DNA from: Tannerellaceae bacterium
GTDB taxonomy: Bacteria; Bacteroidota; Bacteroidia; Bacteroidales; Tannerellaceae
Reading direction: 5' to 3'
Assembly (NCBI GenBank): GCA_031285925.1
Contig: JAITVG010000229.1
Coordinates: 1-35,400, forward strand
DNA: 35,400 nucleotides
A model generated the notes under the pieces. The model was not told where the DNA came from. It made no database searches and worked only from the letters and a program-made list of their open reading frames with translations. Positions 3,221-30,107 of this stretch are shown here, one piece after another. Every line of letters begins with the position of its first letter. The stretch's first letter is position 1. The position numbers and the translations under genes were made by a program.

Positions 3221-3285
3221 AAAAATCATTTAGATGGTTTTGGAAAGGCATTTAGACAATTTTCGGAAAACATTTAGATGGATTA
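3206..3285. repeat. four imperfect 15-bp repeats with 21-22 bp period
   Basis: Units resembling CATTTAGATGGTTTT start at 3206, 3227, 3249 and 3271. The spacing of 21-22 bp equals two helical turns. The first unit forms the right arm of the hairpin at 3179-3220. The last runs into the stop codon of the minus-strand gene ending at 3283. The role is unknown; reiterated terminator arms or a protein-binding array are both possible. Confidence 0.6.
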
Positions 3286-4128
3286 TCCGTTCAACAATTT
3301 ATACTCTTCTTCCTCTGATGGGGGGATCAGATCTTCAGGCAAATCGGATACACCGAAATTCTTATAATCGGTCAGCAGATTGCCTGCATCTTTTTCGGCT
3401 TCGGTCTTTTCAACCATCTGGGTTTCCATGCCTTCGGCCGCTTCATGTATATCTTCGGCAATAAATATGTACTTGCCGTACCATTTATTAAAGGTGTCGG
3501 CGTCCAATTCCATTTCAGTCATCAATAAATCACGAACGGCCGGTTCCAACGCTTCGGCAGCAATAGCGCTTTGACGAGCGGCGCTATACTTGCGCATCGT
3601 GGTTTGCCATTCTTTTCTCAATTCGGGAATTTCTTTTATCCCCTGCCCGATAACATGAGGCCCCAAGTCTTTTACGGGTTTGATATAAGAAAAGGCTTTC
3701 AATCCCAAATTGGGAAGCGCCAAAGCCGCAGTTGCCGTTTGCAAGCTAAGCGCAGTAGCGTCCAGCGCAATTTGCGTGCCGATAAGGACAGCATGTGCCG
3801 CCTGCCACCGTCCCATACCTTCGCTCAGAAATTTATTGCCGACCGAATCGATCATGCACTTCAAAAGATAGTCTTTACCTCCTGCGGAAAAAGCAACTTC
3901 CCGGTATTGATACGTTGCAAGATCGGATCTGTAAGTCGAAATCAAGTTATACAGCGAATCGCAGGACGACAGGTAGGCATCGATGTCTTTATCACCCGAC
4001 GGCTTCGGCATTTCCCATACAAACGTCTTTTCCTTCTTACTTTTTTTCTGGGCGACCACAGACTCCGGAAATACAAGTAACAATCCTAATACTGCCGCAA
4101 AGGCAACTAATACATGTTTAGTTCTCAT
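3283..4128 (-). CDS. exported helical protein of the tubulin-like operon (last gene)
   Basis: No family is recognised. The 281-residue product has a signal peptide (MRTKHVLVAFAAVLGLLLVF, ending about VVAQ) and a mostly helical body with an Ala/Leu-rich middle (about residues 110-150). The tail is acidic and contains a Glu run near the end. An upstream in-frame ATG at 4167 would add 13 residues before the signal peptide and overlap the previous gene; the ATG at 4128 gives a normal signal peptide and a 31-bp gap, so I chose it. It is the seventh and last gene of the operon. The product should be periplasmic or outer-membrane associated. Confidence 0.8.
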   Translation of the reverse strand: MRTKHVLVAFAAVLGLLLVFPESVVAQKKSKKEKTFVWEMPKPSGDKDIDAYLSSCDSLYNLISTYRSDLATYQYREVAFSAGGKDYLLKCMIDSVGNKFLSEGMGRWQAAHAVLIGTQIALDATALSLQTATAALALPNLGLKAFSYIKPVKDLGPHVIGQGIKEIPELRKEWQTTMRKYSAARQSAIAAEALEPAVRDLLMTEMELDADTFNKWYGKYIFIAEDIHEAAEGMETQMVEKTEAEKDAGNLLTDYKNFGVSDLPEDLIPPSEEEEYKLLNG

Positions 4129-4159
4129 AATTGATATTGTTTTAATTGTTAATAAAATA

Positions 4160-5533
4160 TTATTCAAATACTATTTCTGTCGTTGTACTGCTGATGGCAT
4201 ACGATTCTTTGTCGCCAAAAAAATAAAGGTAAGCCGGTGGCGCAGTTTCAAAAACCAGACGGAACGAACCGTCATCGCGCGTAAGCCCCAACGGTTCATC
4301 CTTTTTATTTGTCTTCGGCTTCTTTTCCGTAGCCGATGCGTAAATCGGGATTCCTCCCCCACCGGGATGTTTACCGGTGATTACCTGATACTGCACCAAT
4401 ACGGTGTCTTCCTTCATATTCAGCGGATGATTATCCAGTTTTGTGTCTAATGTTGTAATACGTTCGGCATATATCGACGCGCCGGGTGCGTATTCCAACA
4501 CCTTTTGATAAGCGCGGATAGCTCCACGCAAGTAGACAAATACACTATCGGCTGTAAATCCTTCTTCGCGTTCAATTCTTGCTCCTTGCCTTTCGAACTT
4601 TTCGGCATAAAACAGAAATCTGCGCGCCGAACTCATTTTACCCAATCGTTCTTCCAGTTCGCCTCTTCGATCTATCGGACAATTCACATGGCTCCGCGCG
4701 TCCTCCCAGGCATTGGCGGCCGCGAAAAAGTCGGATTCGTTTTCTTTGGCCACCGCTTTGGCCACCACCTCATCGAATGAGAGTTCTTTCTCGATTACCT
4801 TCACATTGCTTACAACCGTATAACTATACGATTTCTTATATTCCAAATCCCCTCCCAGGTCAATGGGAATAGCCGTGCGGTTATCTACCTTTATATTGAA
4901 TACCGGATGTTTTACAAAAGTGGTTGTCGGCATTGCCTCATCAAGCGAGAAGGCGATACTGTATTCCGTCAGTACGCCGTCCCGGTTTATCGAAGCCGTC
5001 ATATTCGTCCCGTTCATTGTCACAGCCTCTCCGTTCGAGAAGCAGACGGCGCCGTTGCATTCAATGGTAAGCTTCTGTACTTCGGACAAGAATGTCACTT
5101 TGGCCGCTTTTGATTCGGGATACACGCGGTCGCCATTCCTTTCGATCGTGAGGAAGTTTTCGTTAAACGTACCCACATAGGCTTTCCCTTCCCACAGCGT
5201 GAGCTTCGCCTCTTCCTGTCCTGCCGGTAAACGGAGTATCAGCGTTGTTTTAATAAACTCATCTTCATAATCTTCAGGGAAAGCATAATCAATCGTGTAA
5301 CAGAATGTCCCGTCCTCCGCCGCTGTTTTTACGCCCTCTTCTTCTCCCGAACTATGCTGCATGGTCATTTTATCGCTATTGGAATAAACGATAATCTTCA
5401 CCCGGCCGGGAGCAACAGTGATTGCCGGATCTTCCTTAAAGTCGATAAACGTGGTTCTTTGCGCATGTGCATCCATCCCTGCTACCCCTGTGAGGAGTAT
5501 CAATAATACAATATGAAATATCTGTTGCATCAT
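4160..5533 (-). CDS. exported protein with TPR-like helices and a C-terminal carboxypeptidase-regulatory-like domain
   Basis: The 457-residue protein has a signal peptide cleaved about AHAQ. The N-terminal half (about 25-240) is beta-rich. A helical segment (about 250-370), with FFAAANAWEDAR and YLRGAIRAYQKVLEYAP, resembles TPR-type repeats. The C-terminal part (about 375-457) carries GIPIYAS and LTRDDGSFRLVFETAPP, the pattern of a carboxypeptidase-regulatory-like beta-sandwich. It lies 10 bp after the preceding gene. A scaffold role in the periplasm is inferred from its modular, non-enzymatic composition. No catalytic motif is seen. I do not recognise the full-length family. Confidence 0.8.
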   Translation of the reverse strand: MMQQIFHIVLLILLTGVAGMDAHAQRTTFIDFKEDPAITVAPGRVKIIVYSNSDKMTMQHSSGEEEGVKTAAEDGTFCYTIDYAFPEDYEDEFIKTTLILRLPAGQEEAKLTLWEGKAYVGTFNENFLTIERNGDRVYPESKAAKVTFLSEVQKLTIECNGAVCFSNGEAVTMNGTNMTASINRDGVLTEYSIAFSLDEAMPTTTFVKHPVFNIKVDNRTAIPIDLGGDLEYKKSYSYTVVSNVKVIEKELSFDEVVAKAVAKENESDFFAAANAWEDARSHVNCPIDRRGELEERLGKMSSARRFLFYAEKFERQGARIEREEGFTADSVFVYLRGAIRAYQKVLEYAPGASIYAERITTLDTKLDNHPLNMKEDTVLVQYQVITGKHPGGGGIPIYASATEKKPKTNKKDEPLGLTRDDGSFRLVFETAPPAYLYFFGDKESYAISSTTTEIVFE

Positions 5534-5543
5534 ACGATCAGAT

Positions 5544-6545
5544 TTACAAGTCGATTACAAAATCACCCGTAGTGAAGATTTCTTCCTTAGCGATTTCTTC
5601 CGTACGGTTGCTGTTCATCCAGCGCGGTTGCCAGGTACGCACATGAATCTGCACCTCATCTTTGTTGCGAAAATCCCATAGCATAAACAGATAGCCGTCA
5701 TCACTGTATCCACTGCTATTCGCGTAAAGCTGATGCACCGTCACTCCATAAAAGCCTTCCATCTTCGGATTCGGATGCTTGACAACCTTAACTTCATCAA
5801 AATTCACATTGATCCATTTGTTTACGGCAAAGCTGCGTTTCAGGTTGGCAATGTATTCCTGCTTGCCCTGCTTCTTGTAAGTTACCTTATCGTATGTAAC
5901 TCCCGCTCCGTCGGTCTTCTTCACTTTAGTCACCACTCCGGTGATGATCAAAGCGTCCTCGCTGAATATGTTTTCCAAAAACACGATGTCTTCTTCATTG
6001 TAGGCCGTGCGAAACTGCTCTACGTAGGAAAGTATCTCCTGCCGGCGGGCTACTTCCGTCACTGTCTTTCCCTTTTTCATCACGTCCTGATAGATCGTGG
6101 TACTTAATGTAAAATTCAAACGTTCAATCTTTCCGTTCGCATCATAATTGATCACAGCTTCCTGGTAATTATCATCCAATGTTTCTCCCATCGGTTTAAT
6201 GATCAACGGGATCCGGCGTACCTGATAGCCACTGCCGTTATTGAGGCACGACTGAAGCACTTCCGATTCGTTGCAATAGAAATGTGTATTCTCCCATAGC
6301 GCATTCAAGCCCCGTTCGGCTGTTTCGGAGAGTTCCATGAGTGCCAGATTCAAGGCTCTGTTTTCCTTAAATGCCCGGTTGATTTCCGTAAGCAATCTGC
6401 CGGTAGACATTTCTATTTTAGCCTTCAATCCTGCATTATACAAACCATCAACGATTTCCAGTTTAACGTCATCCTGGGCTTGAACGGGAAGTGCTATCAG
6501 TGCTATTGCAACTGCCAGCACCCAACTTAAAATAGTTCTTTCCAT
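5544..6545 (-). CDS. exported protein with an NTF2/SnoaL-like C-terminal region
   Basis: The 333-residue protein starts with a signal peptide (MERTILSWVLAVAIALIALP, cleaved about VQAQ). The N-terminal part (about 25-160) is of unknown type. Residues about 165-320 resemble an NTF2-like cone. A first helix is followed by YNEEDIVFLENIFSEDALII, and the last strands include DDGYLFMLWDFRNKDEVQIH and VRTWQP. NTF2-like folds usually bind small molecules or mediate dimerisation, and no catalytic residue can be assigned here. It is the fifth gene of the operon, 43 bp after the previous stop. Periplasmic location is predicted. Confidence 0.8.
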   Translation of the reverse strand: MERTILSWVLAVAIALIALPVQAQDDVKLEIVDGLYNAGLKAKIEMSTGRLLTEINRAFKENRALNLALMELSETAERGLNALWENTHFYCNESEVLQSCLNNGSGYQVRRIPLIIKPMGETLDDNYQEAVINYDANGKIERLNFTLSTTIYQDVMKKGKTVTEVARRQEILSYVEQFRTAYNEEDIVFLENIFSEDALIITGVVTKVKKTDGAGVTYDKVTYKKQGKQEYIANLKRSFAVNKWINVNFDEVKVVKHPNPKMEGFYGVTVHQLYANSSGYSDDGYLFMLWDFRNKDEVQIHVRTWQPRWMNSNRTEEIAKEEIFTTGDFVIDL

Positions 6546-6588
6546 TATCTTATCTTTTTACCTGTTAATTATTCAGTAACTATCTTTC

Positions 6589-7593
6589 TCATTTTATTCC
6601 TGTTTTCTTTTCGGGGGTTGTATTTTCCCCATTCAGTTCGCCAAACAGTGATGAGATATTGTGTGTAGGGACAAACAGGGTGATGTCGCCTGCTATGGTA
6701 CCTTTCTTTTCGCCCAAAAGCGCGTAAGGCACCTCAACATTCATCACATGATTATATTTCAACACCGTGTTTACGGCAAACACATACGCTTTCACACAGT
6801 CGGTATCCAATGCTTCAATGCCTGCATACAGCCTGCAACCACGAACTTCCGCATACTTTATCCACGAACGCAGCGGAACCGTAAACCGATCCTTTTTCAA
6901 TCCGTACCGGCGAACCGTAAGATCGACCGACAGATCACAATCCATCTCTCCGGAGAGCAGAAGGTTGAACACACTCTCCGCCGGATGATCCTTGCTGAAC
7001 ACCAACCGTTTGTTGCCCTTCACTTCTTCATAGTAAAGATGATTGTTGATTTCTTCCATATAATAGGCATCGCCTGTTTTCATATAATAACCGCTTGCCA
7101 ATTTCTTCAGTTCTCCGCCTGCAAGCGGCACCGACGGTTCCACATATCGTAATGTCGAGAGTTCCGAAACAAATGCATTTTCCAGCTCTTTCAGGTTCAT
7201 TCCGGTCAGCAACCGGCACGAAGCCGGGAAAGAAAGTTCGATCAGCAGCAGCGATTCATTCGCAAACGATACGGTATAACGGTTTTCCCTCTCGGAGAAG
7301 TTCATGGCTGTCTGTTCGTCGATAAGGTTCAAATGATGCAGACCGCCTTGAAGAATCCGTACATCGTCGCGTTCCATCCTTGATTTCCTTTCGGCAGCCG
7401 GCATGCTTTGGAGTTGAGTCAGGTAGCGTTCCGTAAAGTCGTAGGCCACAAGGGCATAAGGAATATCGGAAGAAACGGAAACTACCGACTCGCGGAGTTT
7501 TCCGGTTCCCCAATTTCCTGTTTGCTGTCCCCAAGCAATGAACGGGAACAGCAAAAGGAGCATACGGACAGTCTGAATAGCCGGCTTCCTCAT
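6589..7593 (-). CDS. exported protein of unknown function, translationally coupled
   Basis: No family is recognised. The 334-residue product has a signal peptide (MRKPAIQTVRMLLLLFPFIA, cleaved about WGQQ). The rest is a mixed alpha/beta body without transmembrane segments. Its ATG overlaps the stop of the upstream gene by one base (TAATG at 7595-7591), which implies translational coupling and matched stoichiometry with the membrane protein encoded just before it. The tail is polar (ENTTPEKKTGIK). A periplasmic partner of the membrane-anchored Ig-like/MORN-like protein is a reasonable inference. Confidence 0.8.
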   Translation of the reverse strand: MRKPAIQTVRMLLLLFPFIAWGQQTGNWGTGKLRESVVSVSSDIPYALVAYDFTERYLTQLQSMPAAERKSRMERDDVRILQGGLHHLNLIDEQTAMNFSERENRYTVSFANESLLLIELSFPASCRLLTGMNLKELENAFVSELSTLRYVEPSVPLAGGELKKLASGYYMKTGDAYYMEEINNHLYYEEVKGNKRLVFSKDHPAESVFNLLLSGEMDCDLSVDLTVRRYGLKKDRFTVPLRSWIKYAEVRGCRLYAGIEALDTDCVKAYVFAVNTVLKYNHVMNVEVPYALLGEKKGTIAGDITLFVPTHNISSLFGELNGENTTPEKKTGIK

Positions 7594-8450
7594 TACGGAA
7601 TGATCACTTCTTTATTTCCATCGCTCTTATACCACGTACCGGTAGTGAGATGACCGTCCTCAAAGATACCAATCACCTTTTCGCCTGCTTTCGCTTCGCG
7701 CTTCTTCACATCGCGCGGTTCGATGATATGTGTGGTTTTAAATGTAAGCACTCCGTTATCATCGTTCATCAAGCCATTCTTCATGCGTCCTTTGTAGACG
7801 GCATAACCCAGGTCTTTGGTTATGATGCCGTTGCTATCGCCTCCATTACCGCCATTACCACTTTCAGATACAACAACTTCTATTTCAGCTTTTGTCTGTG
7901 AACGGTCTGCCACGGCTGCGATAATGGCTTTACCTGCTGCAAGCGCTGTAACGATACCATCCTGTGATACCGTAGCCACCGCTTCATTATCCGATTTCCA
8001 TACAATGGATTCATTCGCATTAGCGGGATGGCAATTGATATTCAACTGTTTCGTTTCATCCTTTTTCAGTTTCATATCCTGTGCCGTTTCCATAAATGTT
8101 ATGTCGGTTATATTTATTTTAGCTACGTTAATGGGATCCCCTCCCGGTTTCGGAGGAGGAGGTGGAGGAGAAGGAGGGTCACCACCCATAAACATAAAAC
8201 CGACCGCTCCGCCTCCCAAAATCACCACGGCCGCAATGATCCCGAATATCAGTTTCATGTTCGCACCTTTTTTAGGTGGAGGAACCATACGTAACGGTTC
8301 TTTACACTCTTCGCATACGAAATCCTGCGCAGCCCTTACAGCCTGTACTTCCTTACTTTCAAACTTCGGGCAGGGTTTTCCCTCTCCGTCTTTGTCTCGA
8401 TTGGTGCAGATACCATATTTGTATCTGTCGTGTTCACTCGATCTTGCCAT
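7593..8450 (-). CDS. zinc-ribbon / transmembrane / Ig-like (Big2) / MORN-like protein
   Basis: The 285-residue protein has four parts. Residues 1-50 contain Cys15, Cys27, Cys46 and Cys49 (last pair CEEC), a likely cytoplasmic zinc ribbon. Residues about 66-88 form one transmembrane helix (LIFGIIAAVVILGGGAVGF). Residues 92-102 are a proline-rich linker. Residues about 113-194 match the bacterial Ig-like group 2 pattern (IVWKSDNEAVATVSQDGIVT). After a Gly/Asn linker, residues 215-238 (YKGRMKNGLMNDDNGVLTF) and about 261-278 (GIFEDGHLTTGTWYKSDG) resemble MORN repeats. There is no N-terminal signal, so the zinc ribbon should face the cytoplasm and the Ig/MORN part the periplasm. The gene starts 7 bp after the tubulin-like gene. 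This topology makes it the natural bridge between that GTPase and the exported proteins. Confidence 0.85.
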   Translation of the reverse strand: MARSSEHDRYKYGICTNRDKDGEGKPCPKFESKEVQAVRAAQDFVCEECKEPLRMVPPPKKGANMKLIFGIIAAVVILGGGAVGFMFMGGDPPSPPPPPPKPGGDPINVAKINITDITFMETAQDMKLKKDETKQLNINCHPANANESIVWKSDNEAVATVSQDGIVTALAAGKAIIAAVADRSQTKAEIEVVVSESGNGGNGGDSNGIITKDLGYAVYKGRMKNGLMNDDNGVLTFKTTHIIEPRDVKKREAKAGEKVIGIFEDGHLTTGTWYKSDGNKEVIIP

Positions 8451-8457
8451 AACTATT

Positions 8458-11400
8458 TTATCTCTTGTTTATTAATTCGATTGCTTTCGTTGCTTCCGTA
8501 GCATATTGCTGATACTTGGCCGATGTCGGGCTTGCACATTCCCTGCTTACATATTCACGCATCACTACTTTCACCGCTTCCACCATAGCTGAACGTTCGC
8601 TCATCTTCAAATCCGGATTTTTAAGGAGTGCGTCTACCTTTTCCTTGATGGTATCGAGCACTTCTTCCGTCAGCTCCTCGCTGGTGAGTATATCCGTAAA
8701 CCGGGGAGCGATGAGTGTTACTATCTCGGAGCCAAACATATCGGTCGTCACAATACACCAACCCTTTTCTTCACGCATATTTTCGCGAATAGCCAAAACA
8801 TTGTTGGCGACAGCTATAAACAGATAAGGAATAAACTCTTGCGGTGAAATCCTCCTTTCGCCCATCAATTCAGGCAAATCTGTTCCGTCGCCTTCGCTGT
8901 GGAGCAGGATACGGGCTTCTCTGGCTTCGGTTTCGTTCCTGTTGTTCACCATGTCGTTGTAGGCACGATCATAGTAAGGCAACCAGGAGATGGCACGCAT
9001 TGGGAAGCAGCAACGAACGGAAACGATTGTAATCTCATTCATTCGCGAGCCGGATGTGTCAAACTGAATGATACTGCCCGGCGTTGCATTACCAAAAGCT
9101 CCCCGGAAGGCCGATTTTAGTCTATCGGCAAATACTTTGAGCGACTCGTTTCCCTCGTCCGCAGGCATCGATACAAGAATCGTCTTGCGATTGATGGATT
9201 CGGGCTGAGCCACCGGATTGGGATTATTATTCAATGCTTTCGACAGTTCTCCATCATCGAGTTTCAGGAACGTGCCGCTCTTTTTAATAACATCATTAGC
9301 AAAATTGCGTATATCTGTTTCGGTGAGCAGCACTTTCTGCAATTGTTGCAGTACGTTCAGTCCCAATATTTTGTCATGCTGATAGTCTTGATCATGCTTT
9401 TCGCGCACTCTCGGGCTAAGCTCGGTATCGAAGATATCGAAAATGACATCATCGTTCGTTGTGTCCGCCAATTCACTGAAGTGCGCATACGTGCGATTAC
9501 CGGCAATAGCTTTACGGATATTTCCTGCCCATGTTTCCTGCTGGTTCTTGTCCAAAATAAGCGCCTGTTCTATTTTTAGCATCTTCTCATCTTCGCTCAC
9601 TTCAACAATAGCGCCCGACAAATCAGCTATTCCTTTCGTATTCTTATTACGGTCGGCAATGCGTTTCTCGGCAGCGTCCATCGATACAAGCAATACGCCG
9701 ATGAACCGGCTGACTTCCGCACTAAACTCTTCAAACACTGCACGAAGCTTGCCCAGCAACTTGCCTTCAAATTCGTAAGCCACTCGCTGAGTGCGCAGCG
9801 TATAGAGGTCTTTCATAATCAACTGATGGTCGGAATACAGACGGGGCGACTTCCCTGTAGCGCGTTGCAGCAACGACAAGTTGTTGAAGTCGTAATTGTT
9901 AGCGTCGGCATCGCCTTTATTCAAACTAATCCTTTCGTCTACTCCGGCAATATCCGCTTCTATCCGGTCCTTGCGATTCCTGATATAAGTCAGCACCGTA
10001 TTACAGATGTTCAGTAAATCTTCCAGCGAGAGAAAACCTTCATACCACTTCGTATACAGATCCCTTTCTATACGTTCTATAATATACCGTGCCTGTTCTC
10101 TCAGCAATTGGTCATTCCCTTTGTCCTGATAGTAAGGTTCAACTCCCTGCCTGTTGCGAAATGCAGTATTATACGTTTCGGCACAGTGATTTTCAAGGAA
10201 CCGCAACGGTTCCGGATCTACCCCCCTAGCGGCATCATAAGAGTAATCGTTAGTGATCTCACTCCAAAAAGTTTCTATCCTGCTGCAATATCTGTCGGTA
10301 TCAAATATTCTTTCTTCCAGCATCAGGTGGCTGTCGTCGAGCCTCCATTCGCGCAGATTCCTATCATTAATATACAATTCGCGATAGTCTTTGCGGGCAG
10401 ATTCCTTCACGAATCCAAAGTCTTCTTTGAAATTGTTGTATTGCATCTGAAGCAATACACGTTCGCCGATGGTGTAGGTGATATGTTCCAGTATACGCTT
10501 TTCCGGATAGATGATGCGCTTGATACCAAACGTACTGATGGCTTTGGTGCGGGCGCGTTCTTTGTCGTTGCCTCTTAACTTTTCGCTGTATTCTACACAG
10601 AAATCGTTAATGTTTTCCAGGCTGAAAGAGCGCAGGAAGCCGTCTGTCGTACCATTCTTTTCTTCGAGGAAAAGACGGAAATACACCGTATCCGCCAACA
10701 GTTGGGGAAGCTCCGTAAACGAATTAACCACTACTCCGTTTTCATTGACGTTGGAATAAAGCATCAATCCGAACTGTTTGTTGGGAGTGATATTTAAGTT
10801 TACATGTTCGTCGCCGCGAATAACATCCGAAGGCAAGAAACGACCGACATTGAGTGCGCTCAACTCCCTCAGTGCCGCATAGCCGTTCTGATGATAACGT
10901 CCGGCCTGGCATCCTGCCGGAATATCCAGCTCGGGCACCATGGCGTAGACCATAATATTGGCATGTCTATAAGCTTCTTGCGCACGGGTTTGTGCAATGA
11001 CGTCAATGATTGAACCCGAACCTGTTCCACCCGCCAATCCGGTGAAGATATGAATATTGAGGCTATCATTGTTTGTAATATCCCTTACCTTATCATATTG
11101 TCCTCTAAGAGCAGCGAGATAACTGTTGCAATTGGCAGCAAACAGGATACGTCCGGCACGGCGTTTCTGCCCGGCAGCGGCTCCTACCTCGCCCAGTGTA
11201 TTTTTCATCGAAGCGCCATTTCTCACGATAGTCTTCAGGCCGGGGAAACTGGAAACATTGTCCAATATCTGCTTCAAGTCTACCGTCTTAATATCTACAA
11301 ACTCGCTTTCCGTGAATGAGGCATCCTTGCCCATCACCCGGAATGAAGGATCGCCGGGTGCCATCATCTCACGTGTAGAGTCCACGTATACAAAGCCGAT

Positions 11401-11535
11401 AGCCAGCTTTGCACGGTCGTCATCGTTTGGAAACTCCTGAAAAATACGCTTGCGGATAGCTTTCAGCACTTTGCCGCCTGTACCGCCTAAACCTACCAGA
11501 ATGTGGTTTGGGTTGGTGAGATCTAATCTGTCCAT
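8458..11535 (-). CDS. giant tubulin/FtsZ-like GTPase (Tubulin_2-type)
   Basis: The 1025-residue cytoplasmic protein has no signal or membrane helix. Its first 320 residues carry tubulin-superfamily nucleotide motifs in order: GLGGTGGK at 15-22 (T1-like), VDST at 51-54, GAAAGQKRRAGR at 118-129 (T3-like), GLAGGTGSGS at 166-175 (the tubulin signature/T4 loop), and NGYAALREL from Asn217 (guanine-contact helix). A T7-like catalytic segment is uncertain; ENINDF at 307-312 is the closest candidate. The remaining 700 residues are largely helical and charged, with no family I can name. FtsZ is about 320-480 residues, so this is much larger; it resembles the Pfam tubulin-like family I recall as Tubulin_2 (PF13809). 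It is the second gene of the operon. Polymerisation and a scaffold or force role are inferred. It is not the cell-division FtsZ. Confidence 0.88.
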   Translation of the reverse strand: MDRLDLTNPNHILVGLGGTGGKVLKAIRKRIFQEFPNDDDRAKLAIGFVYVDSTREMMAPGDPSFRVMGKDASFTESEFVDIKTVDLKQILDNVSSFPGLKTIVRNGASMKNTLGEVGAAAGQKRRAGRILFAANCNSYLAALRGQYDKVRDITNNDSLNIHIFTGLAGGTGSGSIIDVIAQTRAQEAYRHANIMVYAMVPELDIPAGCQAGRYHQNGYAALRELSALNVGRFLPSDVIRGDEHVNLNITPNKQFGLMLYSNVNENGVVVNSFTELPQLLADTVYFRLFLEEKNGTTDGFLRSFSLENINDFCVEYSEKLRGNDKERARTKAISTFGIKRIIYPEKRILEHITYTIGERVLLQMQYNNFKEDFGFVKESARKDYRELYINDRNLREWRLDDSHLMLEERIFDTDRYCSRIETFWSEITNDYSYDAARGVDPEPLRFLENHCAETYNTAFRNRQGVEPYYQDKGNDQLLREQARYIIERIERDLYTKWYEGFLSLEDLLNICNTVLTYIRNRKDRIEADIAGVDERISLNKGDADANNYDFNNLSLLQRATGKSPRLYSDHQLIMKDLYTLRTQRVAYEFEGKLLGKLRAVFEEFSAEVSRFIGVLLVSMDAAEKRIADRNKNTKGIADLSGAIVEVSEDEKMLKIEQALILDKNQQETWAGNIRKAIAGNRTYAHFSELADTTNDDVIFDIFDTELSPRVREKHDQDYQHDKILGLNVLQQLQKVLLTETDIRNFANDVIKKSGTFLKLDDGELSKALNNNPNPVAQPESINRKTILVSMPADEGNESLKVFADRLKSAFRGAFGNATPGSIIQFDTSGSRMNEITIVSVRCCFPMRAISWLPYYDRAYNDMVNNRNETEAREARILLHSEGDGTDLPELMGERRISPQEFIPYLFIAVANNVLAIRENMREEKGWCIVTTDMFGSEIVTLIAPRFTDILTSEELTEEVLDTIKEKVDALLKNPDLKMSERSAMVEAVKVVMREYVSRECASPTSAKYQQYATEATKAIELINKR

Positions 11536-11565: not shown

Positions 11566-12144
11566 TTATATCCTGCGATGCGCCCGCGGACGGACATGTG
11601 CACCGTTACTCCGGCGCGGTGAAGAAACTGCCGGTCGCTGCCCTCTGTTCCTGCCGCCTCCGCCATTTGCCGCAGCATCCAATGCCACTACGCCCGCAAA
11701 ACATACAATGATCCCACCCAGCGCCCATGCAGCATGCCGCCACATAAACCGGTTGATGGCGCTGCTGATGCAGGTCAATAAAAAGGTTTTCATGTCGGTT
11801 CCCTGCATTTGCGCGGTGATAAATTCGTCGGCTGCGGTGGCCGCTATCTCTTTCAGGTAGGGTTTCAGAAAAGTATATTCATCGACAAGATCGCTCCAAT
11901 CGGTTGCCCTGCCGACAGTTGCGCTCAGCACTTCCATGTCGGTCAGCATACTTTTAGCCCTTGCGCCGCCGATGATAGCCGCAAAATGGAACGAAAGGAA
12001 GATGAAAAGGAAAATGCCTGCCAATCCTGTTTGCCAAACAGGCATCTTTGTTAAAGCGTTTATTAAAAAGGCGGCAAGGCCGGCAACTAATATCCCGGCC
12101 AATATGCCCCAAAAAAGCGCTGCTGCAAAACCAAAAAACATCAT
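11566..12144 (-). CDS. multi-pass membrane protein, first gene of the tubulin-like operon
   Basis: The 192-residue protein has two hydrophobic segments near the N-terminus (about 1-27 and 36-60). A soluble helical middle (about 65-125) follows, then a third segment (about 136-158, WALGGIIVCFAGVVALDAAA), then a Gly-rich and strongly basic tail (RNRGQRPAVSSPRRSNGAHV). A GTG two codons upstream (12150) is possible, but the ATG at 12144 follows a GGGAGG stretch and is preferred. It ends 30 bp before the tubulin-like gene. The basic tail could contact the GTPase, the membrane surface or nucleic acid. The family is not recognised. Confidence 0.8.
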   Translation of the reverse strand: MMFFGFAAALFWGILAGILVAGLAAFLINALTKMPVWQTGLAGIFLFIFLSFHFAAIIGGARAKSMLTDMEVLSATVGRATDWSDLVDEYTFLKPYLKEIAATAADEFITAQMQGTDMKTFLLTCISSAINRFMWRHAAWALGGIIVCFAGVVALDAAANGGGGRNRGQRPAVSSPRRSNGAHVRPRAHRRI

Positions 12145-12173
12145 AACCACCCTCCCTGCCTAACTTTTAGTTT

Positions 12174-26075: not shown

Positions 26076-26600
26076 ATGAAAACAAACATTTTAAAAGTTG
26101 CTGCAATCATGATAATGTTAGCAGGAGAATTTGCTTGCACAAACAATGAAGATACGGATGAAAATAACATGGTTTCAATCAAAATCCAATGTAATTCTAC
26201 AAACGTTGTTGATCCCAATATTGCATCATTTGCACTTCCTGGTATCGTCGATGCAGTATGCACTGAACACCTACCATATCCTAATTATGGTGGAATTCCG
26301 GAAGCATGGAGTCCTCACTTATGGACTATATATTTGGTTTTATCAAAAGGAACTGATCGCACCAAGCTTGCTCCAATCATTACCTTGGCGCCAAACGTAA
26401 AAATCACACCAGTATCAGGTATGGTGTGTGATTTCACCAATCCGGTAGAATGGATTCTAATTGCACCGGATGGATCAACAGTCAATTATCAGGCTACAGT
26501 TTTTGTTATAGGTGATCCTTATCGGCATATAGAGTATGATAATGATGGAAATCAGATTATTACAGTAATTTATCCGGATGATCCACATTATCCATATTAA
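26076..26600 (+). CDS. island paralogue A: exported lipoprotein with one DUF5018-like domain
   Basis: The 174-residue protein has a lipoprotein signal (IMLAGEFAC, lipid Cys about 21). An acidic stretch follows (TNNEDTDENN), as expected for surface-exported Bacteroidetes lipoproteins. One beta-sandwich domain covers about residues 48-145. Its hallmarks are EHLPYPNYGG, EAWSPHLW, SKGTDRTKLAPIITLAP, DFTNPVEWILIAPDGSTVNY, shared by all four island genes. The tail is acidic and Tyr/Pro-rich. DUF5018-like is my recollection of the family. It forms a pair with gene B 27 bp downstream. Function is unknown; surface adhesion or glycan binding is possible. Confidence 0.8.
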   Translation: MKTNILKVAAIMIMLAGEFACTNNEDTDENNMVSIKIQCNSTNVVDPNIASFALPGIVDAVCTEHLPYPNYGGIPEAWSPHLWTIYLVLSKGTDRTKLAPIITLAPNVKITPVSGMVCDFTNPVEWILIAPDGSTVNYQATVFVIGDPYRHIEYDNDGNQIITVIYPDDPHYPY

Positions 26601-26627
26601 TTGAACAAGCAAAGCAAATAAAACAAT

Positions 26628-27446
26628 ATGAAATCACAAATTTTAAAATTCATCGCGATTATAGCTGTCTTGACAACAGGAAGTTTTTTCTCATCGGCGC
26701 AAAACAGCGAAACAGCCTTGTCTTCGGTTAATAATTTTGTGTCCTCATCAACCGCATTTGCAATTGATAAAAACATCATATCATTTGAAGTTGCCAACCT
26801 TGTTGATAAAATAATCTATGAACACACGCCGTATTCTAATTATGGTGGAATCCCGGAAGCATGGAGCCCTCACTTCTGGACAATAACACTGATTATGGCC
26901 AAAGGGACTGATGTTACCTCTCTTACCCCAGTCATCACTTTGGCACCCGGCGCTACCATAACATTGAAACATGTCGGTGTACAGGATTTCTCGCAACAGG
27001 TTGAATATACCGTAATTTGCGAGGATGGTTCAACCGTCACTTATTTATTTAGGGCTTATACACAAGAAAACACACGTGCAATAGGCTCAATTATAGTAAA
27101 TAAATCTCCCATTGGCGGGGGATTGACTTCTAATATTGGAATTACGTATTATGATGACAGGAATCACTTTTCGTGTAATGCAAGTCCCAACCCGGGATAT
27201 AGGTTCGAACGCTGGTATGTTAATGGTTCGCCAAAAGGGACTAATGTGCGCTTTAGTGATAAAATCCCTTTGATTAATGGAACAGGCACGCTCACCGCAG
27301 TATTCGCTCCTATAATATATTATACGGTTAGCATCTTTAGCAACGACACAAATAAAGGAACAGTATTTGGAGGAGGTACGGTCGTTGCTGGTGGAAGCTT
27401 ACACCTTTCCGCAACGCCTAGATCAGGATACGCATTTGATGGATGA
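26628..27446 (+). pseudogene. island paralogue B: truncated secreted multi-domain protein
   Basis: The 272 residues have a signal peptide ending about FFSSAQ. The shared beta-sandwich domain (about 45-145) is followed by one InlB-B-repeat-like domain (about 148-225). The first half of a second such repeat (YTVSIFSNDTNKGTVFGGGT and following) ends abruptly at FDG. The paralogue D continues GWYLNGVKVSG at this point, where the Trp codon TGG is TGA here. Immediately after, the sequence becomes leader copy 2 (27459). So roughly 300 residues including the C-terminal sorting domain are missing. It may still be translated as a short exported protein. Confidence 0.75.
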
Positions 27447-27458
27447 TATCAATACCTA

Positions 27459-27535
27459 TCGACAAAAATAGTTCACTTTCCCTTTGATTTCTATGATATT
27501 TATTTATAACTTGCTGCGGTTAATATGTGAAGTTG
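27459..27535 (+). repeat. leader direct repeat, copy 2
   Basis: It is about 85% identical to 25953-26029. It begins 12 bases after the truncated stop of gene B, marking the duplication junction. Confidence 0.8.
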
Positions 27536-27748
27536 CTTGAGAATCGCTTGTGGTATGCTTTACAAAGCATAAACCCACTAATTGGCGCACGGCCAACTTG
27601 CAGATATTCAGATTATTGTAAGTATTTGAACTATTTATATAATAAAGTATGAAGACAAACAAACCAACTGCACATTTCCGGCAGGTACAACAAGGTTGTA
27701 ACCGGCAGGCAACGGTTAGGGTTCCGTTGATGTCAAAAAAAAACGGGG
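27536..27748. other. 213-bp insertion that splits leader copy 2
   Basis: In copy 1 the leader runs on from 26029 to GAGAAATATCATTGTCAAA (26038-26056) after only 8 bases. In copy 2 the equivalent GAGAAATACATTGTCAAA starts at 27749. The 213 extra bases contain the palindrome TATGCTTTACAAAGCATA (27554-27571), a TTGGC/GCCAA hairpin (27580-27594), a CCGGCAGG direct repeat, and a 33-codon open stretch. No terminal inverted repeat is obvious. A small mobile or non-coding element is suspected. Confidence 0.5.
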
Positions 27749-27792
27749 GAGAAATACATTGTCAAACAAATGATATGAAATGGATTTGTTAA
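27649..27792 (+). CDS. possible 47-residue ORF in the insertion
   Basis: ATG 27649 to TAA 27790-27792 encodes 47 residues starting MKTNKPTAHFRQVQQGCNRQ. The first 33 codons lie in the inserted sequence and the rest in old leader DNA, so the C-terminus is accidental. No family is recognised. It may be a relic of the element that inserted here. Confidence 0.2.
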   Translation: MKTNKPTAHFRQVQQGCNRQATVRVPLMSKKNGGEIHCQTNDMKWIC

Positions 27793-27830
27793 GCAACAGT
27801 AAGTAACTATAAACATAAAAAATTGGACTT

Positions 27831-28367
27831 ATGAATTTACAGACATTTAAACTCGTAGCGCTTATGGTGCTTATTTCAGGATGCTTTTCCTGTACAAACG
27901 ATTTGGATGATCCTACTCCTCCAGTGGAAGGAACTTTTCCACTGGAAAAATTCGATGTAATAAACCCGGGGGAAAAATCATCTTCATTTGCGATTGACAC
28001 TAATGTGGTTTCATTCGCGGTTCCTAATACTGTTAGGGCAACAGCATATGAACATCTCCCGATACCCGGTTATGGAGGCCCAAATGCATGGAGTCCTCAC
28101 TATTGGAGAATACATCTGTTTATGGCAGAAGGTACCGATATTACCTCTCTTGCTCCAATTGTAACTTTGGCGCCCGGTGTAACCATAACGAAAATAGAGT
28201 GGGGATATCACAAAGAACCGGGTTTCCCGGAATCGGAACAGGTTAATTATACCGGAATTACTGATGTCGGTGTACAAGATTTTTCTAAGCCGGTTCATTA
28301 TACTGTAATTAAATCGGATGGCTCAACTATAACCTACAAGTTTTTGGCAATTACAATAAGTGATTAA
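27831..28367 (+). CDS. island paralogue C: exported lipoprotein with one DUF5018-like domain
   Basis: The 178-residue protein is the duplicate of A. It has a lipoprotein signal (LMVLISGCFSC; Cys18 or Cys21) followed by an acidic TNDLDD stretch. The shared domain has YEHLPIPGYGG, AWSPHYWRI, EGTDITSLAPIVTLAPGVTI and SKPVHYTVIKSDGSTITY. Relative to A it has an insertion of about 20 residues before the VQDFSKPV strand (EWGYHKEPGFPESEQVNYTG). Gene D follows after 51 bp. It is predicted to be surface- or periplasm-exposed. Confidence 0.8.
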   Translation: MNLQTFKLVALMVLISGCFSCTNDLDDPTPPVEGTFPLEKFDVINPGEKSSSFAIDTNVVSFAVPNTVRATAYEHLPIPGYGGPNAWSPHYWRIHLFMAEGTDITSLAPIVTLAPGVTITKIEWGYHKEPGFPESEQVNYTGITDVGVQDFSKPVHYTVIKSDGSTITYKFLAITISD

Positions 28368-28418
28368 ACTATTTTTCAAAGATAACTGAACAAAACAACA
28401 GTAATAAAACCACTAAAA

Positions 28419-30107
28419 ATGAAGCCGCAATTTATTAAATTCGTAGCATTTATAGCGCTTTTAACAGGGAGTTTTTCTCTCTCGGCTCAAAGACTCAATC
28501 CTTCATTCGCTATTGATGAAAACATCACCTCATTTGAGGTCGCCAATCTCGCCGATAAAATAGTATACGAACATCTCCCGAAACCTGGTTATGGAGGGCT
28601 AAATGCATTCAGTCCTCACCACTGGAGAATAACGCTGATTATGGAAGAAGGCACCGATGTTACTGCCCTTTCTCCAATCATTACATTGGCTCCCGGGGCA
28701 ACCATAACGTCGGTGCATGCTCGTGTACAGGATTTTTCACAGCAAGTTGATTATACCGTAATTGCAGAGGATGGATCTACGGTTACCTATAAGGTTTCGG
28801 CTTATGCACAAAAACAAACGCGGGCAAGTCAAACAATTATTATACTCTGTAGTCCTCCTTCCGGGGGAACTACGAATCCTGCGGAAGGAATTTTTCATTA
28901 TCATGATGACATGATTCCCTTTGTTTGTATGGCATATCCCGCTAATGCATATCGGTTCGACTCTTGGGAAATTCATGGTCAGAGGCATGATACTTCCCTG
29001 AGCAATCCATTCTATGGACGTTTACCAGGCTATCATGTTACCTTCTATGCTATATTTGAACCTGCCGTACAAAATACATATACAGTGATTGTCCAAAGTG
29101 AAGACACAAATAGAGGCACAGTATCCGGCGGTGGAACCTGCTATCAGGGCGGCACTGTATCTGTTTCAGCATCACCTAAAGCCGGATGGAAATTTGAGGG
29201 ATGGTATTTAAACGGGGTAAAAGTATCCGGATCGGCAAGTTTCAATTATACTCCATCTGCATCTTGTACTTTAATTGCTAAATTCAGTTCACTCCCTATC
29301 TCTCCCTCCCTCTCCGGCCCTTCACTTGTCTTGAACAGCGGCAGTACATACACTTTAACCGGAGGCAGCGGAGGAACCGTAACTTGGACATACAGTTCAA
29401 ACCTGCGAATGCGAAGTAGCAGTAACACTTCTATTACCGTTGAATCGTTATCAACCAGTGCTGGTACCGGATGGATCCAGGCCTCGGTTGGCGGTATTTC
29501 TACTCCGCGTTATGAAGTTTGGGTGGGCAAGCCGGTTATCACAGGAATATTCGGAGAAACACTTATTACACATCCGGAAGAATACGGTTTTTATTACTAT
29601 GCGCAATACAACGAAAAGGCTTCTATTACAAGCTTCGATTGGGTATTTATGCAGGGGATTGACCCAACATTTTGGAGTAGTACTTCAAAGAGCTGGATTT
29701 ACAACTTTATCGATGATGGCAGTTACCAGCTATGTGTACGTGCTACCAACGCAAACGGAACCGGAAATTATTATCCTATCTCAATCACCGTAGACTTTCC
29801 CGGCATGAGTCCATCACCGCCATCCGCCTACCGTATATCTCAAGATCCCGCATCCAATGAATTGACTGTAACCCCGGATACGTCGGTTTCGCAATTAGCT
29901 CCTCTTTCGCCTTCAAGTGGAGCAGCGAGCAATTATACGGTTTACCTGTATAACGCCGGCGGAGCAGTTGTGAAGCAGGCTGTTTCACAGCAAGGCGGGG
30001 AAGTGCGGCTCGATGTGTCGGGATTACCCAATGGAATTTATTATTTGTTGATAGATACCGGCGACGGTTCCAAACCGGAATCGCATAAGATTATTATCAA
30101 TCATTGA
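28419..30107 (+). CDS. island paralogue D: secreted multi-domain protein with T9SS-type C-terminal sorting domain
   Basis: The 562-residue protein has a signal peptide ending LSAQ and the shared DUF5018-like domain (about 35-130). Two InlB-B-repeat-like domains follow (about 135-216 and 217-290, with GWKFEGWYLNGVKVSG). Then come two beta-sandwich/PKD-like regions (about 295-480; FIDDGSYQLCVRATNANGTG). The last 60 residues (NYTVYLYNAGGAVVKQ, DVSGLPNGIYYLLIDTGDG, KIIINH) match the type A sorting domain used by the type IX secretion system. It is therefore predicted to be exported to the cell surface. It is the intact counterpart of B and forms a pair with C. No enzymatic motif is seen. Confidence 0.85.
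   Translation: MKPQFIKFVAFIALLTGSFSLSAQRLNPSFAIDENITSFEVANLADKIVYEHLPKPGYGGLNAFSPHHWRITLIMEEGTDVTALSPIITLAPGATITSVHARVQDFSQQVDYTVIAEDGSTVTYKVSAYAQKQTRASQTIIILCSPPSGGTTNPAEGIFHYHDDMIPFVCMAYPANAYRFDSWEIHGQRHDTSLSNPFYGRLPGYHVTFYAIFEPAVQNTYTVIVQSEDTNRGTVSGGGTCYQGGTVSVSASPKAGWKFEGWYLNGVKVSGSASFNYTPSASCTLIAKFSSLPISPSLSGPSLVLNSGSTYTLTGGSGGTVTWTYSSNLRMRSSSNTSITVESLSTSAGTGWIQASVGGISTPRYEVWVGKPVITGIFGETLITHPEEYGFYYYAQYNEKASITSFDWVFMQGIDPTFWSSTSKSWIYNFIDDGSYQLCVRATNANGTGNYYPISITVDFPGMSPSPPSAYRISQDPASNELTVTPDTSVSQLAPLSPSSGAASNYTVYLYNAGGAVVKQAVSQQGGEVRLDVSGLPNGIYYLLIDTGDGSKPESHKIIINH

Follow-up and report, generated by a model that had tools for sequence, protein, structure and literature searches.

The FtsZl1 family was described by Makarova and Koonin in 2010 (PMC2875224) as proteins that begin with an FtsZ-like domain, contain a coiled coil and have a mainly helical C-terminal part; a sequence from Bacteroides caccae was part of their alignment. 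In that work the elements after loop T4 were unrecognisable and the segment T6-H7 was not identifiable, and the missing recognisable T7 loop of FtsZl1 is already published. The authors suggested that FtsZl1 proteins form filaments perhaps by a novel mechanism, or form none, and three options were set out in the review section of the paper. A reviewer there remarked that a link was missing between a cytoplasmic FtsZ-like protein and periplasmic or outer-membrane products (PMC2875224). In a 2023 study, FtsZl1 sequences served solely as an outgroup (PMC9871819). A literature search limited to papers available without subscription found no experimental study of any FtsZl1 member. Since 2010 FtsZl1 has counted as the branch of the FtsZ-tubulin superfamily that has diverged furthest, with its filament-forming elements unassigned.

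The locus presented here lies in a window of 35,400 nucleotides, the whole stretch of DNA analysed (contig JAITVG010000229.1, positions 1 to 35,400, assembly GCA_031285925.1), from a gut-type Bacteroidales, a Tannerellaceae bacterium. Its tubulin-like protein resembles FtsZl1 as described (PMC2875224) in the FtsZ-like N-terminus, coiled coil and mostly helical C-terminus, in loops T1 and T4, in the unrecognisable T7 and in the presence of a canonical FtsZ alongside. Unlike in that description, predicted models allow T6, H7, H8, S7 and a split activation domain to be assigned. The operon differs as well: it has no vWA protein, kinase or P-loop GTPase and instead encodes a Cys-rich/TM linker and secreted proteins. 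To the 2010 account we add a residue-level confirmation that T7 is missing, an invariant EN-x(5,6)-E segment, the split-domain reading and a conserved envelope operon.

Family membership and the GTP-binding loops

A sequence-only reading of this DNA had placed a tubulin-like protein at 8458-11535. The reading frame is real and its coordinates are right; it is encoded on the minus strand, and stops abound on the plus strand across 8458-11535. The protein and its nucleotide-binding loops are as follows.

8458..11535, minus strand: Tubulin_2 / FtsZl1 protein of 1025 amino acid residues (P0001), PF13809, E=3.1e-55
11470..11493, minus strand: T1 loop GLGGTGGK, residues 15-22; G15, G17, G18, G20 and G21 invariant in 19 sequences
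11149..11175, minus strand: T3-like loop AGQKRRAGR, residues 121-129; Q123, R125, G128 and R129 invariant; paired with FtsZ T3 by hhalign
11011..11040, minus strand: T4 signature GLAGGTGSGS, residues 166-175; G166, L167 and G169-G174 invariant
10741..10755, minus strand: T6-like segment SNVNE, residues 261-265; N262, N264 and E265 invariant; between S6 (256-260) and H7 (275-288) in the model

The Pfam Tubulin_2 match covers residues 12-360 and reaches 188.3 bits against a curated cut-off of 27, so the motifs are not there by chance. The profile of ordinary Tubulin/FtsZ, PF00091, gave 20.9 bits, under its cut-off of 33, and a sequence search of the PDB matched no chain. The two features that mark the family in sequence, a glycine-rich T1 and a T4 of the GGGTG(S/T)G type, are both present and conserved in 19 homologues; the FtsZ-like N-terminus, coiled coil and mostly helical C-terminal part are present in the AlphaFold2 secondary structure. 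The membership in FtsZl1 (Pfam Tubulin_2; labelled in RefSeq as 'tubulin-like doman-containing protein') is secure, and the protein is not FtsZ.

The source genome (2.8 Mb, 80% complete) contains one Tubulin_2 gene and a separate canonical FtsZ (L096) of 425 residues with the T7 loop NLDFAD. Since the genome carries its own FtsZ, the window protein is not the division protein. The two have in common the GTP-binding fold with T1, T3 and T4, whereas the T7 loop and the length of about 425 residues belong to FtsZ only. The window protein had been called three times larger than FtsZ; measured against the FtsZ of the same genome the ratio is about 2.4.

Loops T1, T3, T4 and T5 and the T6-like SNxNE are kept in all 19 aligned close members. 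The invariant residues include N10 and H11 together with the five glycines of the T1 region, and P201 and E202 in T5. The positions reported earlier for T1, T3, T4 and the segment ENINDF (307-312) are exact. That reading had described a GTP site with an atypical catalytic loop, to be abandoned if the signature glycines were not conserved or if a conserved standard T7 loop lay elsewhere. The glycines are invariant in the 19 homologues, the most distant of which have about 22-25% identity, and the 19-member alignment has no such T7 loop; the description therefore holds. GTP binding by the window protein is well supported by this conservation, and the GTP-binding half, judged from the sequences, is intact and under selection.

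Comparison of the window gene with that of Bacteroides sp. GM023 (L012) gave pN 0.097 and pS 0.742. The dN/dS is about 0.03, with synonymous sites close to saturation. In less diverged pairs the dN/dS was 0.10 (L049-L050) and 0.055 (L050-L051). The C-terminal 385 residues are likewise constrained. In the comparison with L012 pN is lowest (0.043) for the segment 261-345, which contains T6, H7, EN and S7. This segment is again the lowest in the comparison with L050 (0.073 against 0.137 overall), though not in the two closer pairs (L049-L050, L050-L051). A degenerate protein that is losing its GTPase function, as its GTPase-dead paralogues in the clade might suggest, is hardly credible in view of the strong purifying selection along the whole length and the GTP loops, which are all intact.

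The T7 position and the predicted fold

The motif NxDxx[D/E] is absent between H7 and S7, and also from T6 to S7, in all 19 aligned members. This confirms the earlier remark that a canonical T7 loop is not evident, the FtsZ of the same genome having a regular one. The corresponding part of the chain contains the following features.

10645..10671, minus strand: T7 slot between H7 and H8, residues 289-297; frequency of the commonest residue 0.40 on average, none invariant
10612..10617, minus strand: invariant E307-N308, the start of ENINDF; EN-x(5,6)-E in every member with an intact T4
10591..10593, minus strand: E315, an acid 7 residues past N308 (6 in the other subgroup), conserved across members

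The segment ENINDF had been named as the only T7 candidate, and residues 300-320 as the place to look for conservation. E307-N308 is invariant and the following acid is conserved, which bears out part of the suggestion, but residues 309-312 (INDF) vary among the 19 members. The loop length differs between subgroups, and the MAFFT columns split the conserved acid for this reason. The position of the segment also speaks against its being T7. In the model of P0001 helices H7 and H8 span residues 275-288 and 298-304, and in the model of a second member, L052, residues 285-303 and 310-317; in both the EN pair is found at or just past the end of H8. Our first reading, in which EN..E was the T7 loop itself, was dropped for this reason. 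Both models would put EN one element beyond the T7 position, in an H7-S7 loop of low confidence; the placement relative to T7 and the geometry of EN..E are tentative because residues 309-328 of P0001 mostly have pLDDT <50. A profile alignment with Bacteroidales FtsZ, made to find T7, was sensible only over T3-T4 and otherwise noise (E=5.6e-4).

The protein might still form an ordinary dynamic polymer of the FtsZ/tubulin type, its T7 having diverged too far to be seen and catalysis being performed by an acid in the H7-H8 slot. The order S6-T6-H7-H8-S7 of both models is in line with this, as are the 16 of the 19 members whose slot contains one acid or more, and such a polymer is among the three options of Makarova and Koonin (PMC2875224). 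However, no residue of the slot is invariant, and acids are missing from it altogether in L045, L054 and L048, three members whose GTP loops are perfect. We consider such a polymer rather unlikely.

Relatives that have lost T4 provide a comparison for the EN segment. The paralogue L054:10427-12586 (minus strand, 719 residues) keeps T1 and has lost T4, and L045:1326-2456 (minus strand, 376 residues) has degenerate T1 and T4 and lacks the C-terminal half; each is located in the same neighbourhood as an intact gene. Stand-alone proteins of about 655 residues occur in one genus (L077:9329-11416 and L078:9357-11339 of genomes G805 and G867; also G104 and G199). They retain S7 and the coiled-coil part without T1 and T4, and a thymidine-kinase-like gene adjoins them in L077 and L078. 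EN..E is lost along with T4 in all three kinds of paralogue, while the S7-P-E/D motif is retained in those of L054, L077 and L078. These sequences may serve as a small natural control linking EN..E to nucleotide function, as a correlation over few lineages. The paralogues of L054 and L045 are possible GTPase-dead partners of the intact protein.

A separate branch of Tubulin_2 proteins (L027:6884-10279, L029:7035-10658, L123:7935-11579, L124:7959-11258) has the motif (D)FAxxKRSVxxN directly past H7, with KRG in L027. It resembles the FtsZ T7 sequence 'DFADVRTV' with the second catalytic Asp changed to N, Q or P. L123 is an Azospirillum plasmid and L124 a cyanobacterial plasmid.

The AlphaFold2 model of P0001, built with 18 sequences, has a pLDDT of 83.6 and a pTM of 0.65, and that of L052 84.7 and 0.69; most of the alignment is common to both, and the models are not fully independent. 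The best PDB matches found by Foldseek are tubulins for P0001 and tubulins, BtubA, CetZ and TubZ for L052, with probability 1.00 and E about 1e-5 in both cases and TM values normalised to the target of 0.34-0.49. The matches cover the GTPase half of the fold; the second half is assigned solely from the order of elements. Both models run through S6, T6, H7, a short loop, H8, EN, a loose loop, S7 and a helix. Then come about 400 residues, largely helical and including two long coiled-coil helices, before S8-H10-S9-S10 and a C-terminal alpha/beta region. The parts after the loose loop are listed below.

10441..10539, minus strand: S7 strand FGIKRIIYPE and next helix, residues 333-365; R340, P344 and E345 invariant; from the model
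9646..10026, minus strand: long coiled-coil helices, residues 504-630 (helices 504-551 and 562-630), inside the insert 366-780; pLDDT mostly >90; likewise in L052
9007..9192, minus strand: S8-H10-S9-S10, residues 782-843 (strand 782-791, helix 797-814, strands 821-829 and 834-843); from the model
8461..9000, minus strand: C-terminal alpha/beta region, residues 846-1025; from the model; under purifying selection

In the L052 model S8-H10-S9-S10 correspond to strand 787-795, helix 803-815 and strands 823-826 and 831-839. The tubulin activation domain has its elements in the order S7-H9-S8-H10-S9-S10. From this order, and from DSSP strands that need partners, we infer that the activation domain is present and split by the insert. 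This is the natural reading of the models, and it corresponds to option (i) of Makarova and Koonin (PMC2875224). The 700 C-terminal residues that had been left unassigned can now be read, on the models, as split activation domain, coiled-coil insert and C-terminal domain. The structural comparison with FtsZ, TubZ and CetZ proposed earlier gave tubulin-fold matches, and the models would place ENINDF beyond the T7 position. Tubulin, BtubA, CetZ and TubZ are the closest solved folds and agree with the order S7-H9-S8-H10-S9-S10 as assigned here, whereas the window protein has 12-14% identity to them, an insert of about 400 residues between H9 and S8, and no T7 acids.

The insert also bears on the question of whether filaments are formed at all. 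A GTP switch that does not polymerise, with the GTP/GDP state alone governing the coiled-coil arm and its partners, is option (iii) of the 2010 paper (PMC2875224), and it would fit the absence of a canonical T7 and a large insert in the activation domain that could block the filament interface. However, every characterised member of the superfamily polymerises according to Makarova and Koonin (PMC2875224), and full conservation of T1-T6 suits a nucleotide pocket between subunits. This explanation is unlikely in our estimate.

The gene neighbourhood and a possible role

The gene order [5]-tubulin-[1]-[3]-[4]-[2]-[6]-[8/11/12], on one strand, is found in about 16 Bacteroidales loci, some of them cut by contig ends. 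The spacing between neighbouring genes of the window operon is short (about 30, 7, -1, 43, 10 and 31 bases), and the genes are these.

11566..12150, minus strand: gene [5], a small protein predicted to have three TM segments; it lies upstream of the tubulin gene at a distance of 30 bases; same place in at least nine loci
7593..8450, minus strand: gene [1], N-terminal Cys-rich (zinc-ribbon-like) part, one TM segment (67-85, within about 53-89) and an extracytoplasmic part
6589..7593, minus strand: gene [3], signal-peptide protein without a Pfam match
5544..6545, minus strand: gene [2], signal-peptide protein with a weak NTF2-like (Cds6_C) match under the cut-off
4160..5533, minus strand: gene [6], signal-peptide protein
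3283..4167, minus strand: gene [8], signal-peptide protein that probably starts at the ATG at 4128

The signal peptides of genes [3], [4], [2], [6] and [8] are signal-peptide-like starts recognised from hydropathy by script and not by SignalP. The window lacks gene [4], which 14 other loci have, and [3] and [2] are separated there by 44 bases (6545-6589); the gene was not found elsewhere in the source genome, a weak negative from a single incomplete assembly. The usual but non-defining partners of FtsZl1 (vWA protein, kinase, P-loop GTPase, OmpA) were not detected with Pfam in the window operon. An anti-phage defence system was considered and rejected, the seven operon genes of the window and gene [4] giving no PADLOC match; an AriA/PtuA-like ATPase beside L012 is not conserved in the other loci.

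In all loci of the close family, gene [1] is found directly or nearly directly downstream of the tubulin gene, and its extracytoplasmic part in the window contains a Big_2 Ig-like domain (Pfam E=2.9e-15). In the distant loci L025 (Paraburkholderia) and L026 a Cys-rich/TM protein also adjoins the tubulin gene, with a periplasmic part of TPR or PBP+OmpA; an OmpA-containing partner is thus present in the distant member L026. Gene [1] and these counterparts would offer the cytoplasmic tubulin-like protein a physical connection with the periplasm, and they speak to the question of the 2010 reviewer about cytoplasm and periplasm. By its genetic context, the conserved gene set appears to link the cell interior with the outer envelope.

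These observations are consistent with a GTP-gated coiled-coil scaffold on the inner membrane, signalling through the adaptor encoded by gene [1] to secreted partners, a proposal to which we give an even chance of being correct. GTP in the T1-T6 pocket would drive head-to-tail contact of subunits, as dimers or short filaments, and the insert between S7/H9 and S8 would project as a stalk. The zinc-ribbon/TM protein would relay the state of assembly through the membrane to those operon products that are periplasmic or secreted. Any hydrolysis would be slow or rely on acids outside the T7 pair, for which the invariant segment E307-N308...E315 is the best candidate. The assembly, the slow hydrolysis and the adaptor role of gene [1] are what we infer from the sequences, models and gene order. 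A more specific version is improbable as a whole: that the T7 acids are replaced by a trans-acting E-N-x(5,6)-E beyond H8, that the stalk emerges within the activation domain, that the GTP-driven inner-membrane scaffold signals across the envelope via the zinc-ribbon/TM adaptor, and that some relatives pair an active protein with a GTPase-dead paralogue. The three options left open in 2010 become directly testable, with residues E307, N308 and E315 singled out and the GTPase-dead paralogues as natural controls.

In the Azospirillum locus L123 the Tubulin_2 gene is found among caspase-family, OmpA, DUF4384 and PEGA genes.

Distribution of the family

The Tubulin_2 family is patchy. Among 125 genomes from the GTDB family to which the window belongs, 13 have a member. 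At the order level the full-length profile matched 13 of 393 genomes, five of the 13 over an inner stretch only, and in a sample of the phylum a member was present in nine of 396. Within the genus of the window G712 has the gene, while G193, G711 and G713 do not. The G712 member (L047) has just 36% identity to the window protein, against 82% for that of Bacteroides sp. GM023 (L012) and 67% for that of Parabacteroides acidifaciens (L013). A search of genome contigs with the protein alone found only two named relatives. The sequence identity is at odds with taxonomy and the flanking genes vary between loci; horizontal transfer would be the simplest reading of this distribution.

Two scans of viral contigs and a phage collection had no match to the window protein, so there is no sign of a phage tubulin. 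One plasmid relative was found, on a Paraburkholderia megaplasmid replicon of 1.1 Mb. Plasmid segregation of the TubZ type was rejected on the grounds of this single large replicon and the lack of a partner of that kind.

One family member, L074:7935-11063, contains a single in-frame TAG in an operon that otherwise looks intact, and may be a pseudogene or an assembly error. A second FtsZ gene is present in two relatives of the window's genus (L092 and L108 of G712, and G713), with the T7 sequence NRDFRD in L108. Elsewhere in the window, four consecutive plus-strand reading frames at 26076-30107 encode related proteins of 174, 272, 178 and 562 residues, which are secreted or lipoprotein-like and have a common N-terminal stretch, FAID.NI.SFEVANL.
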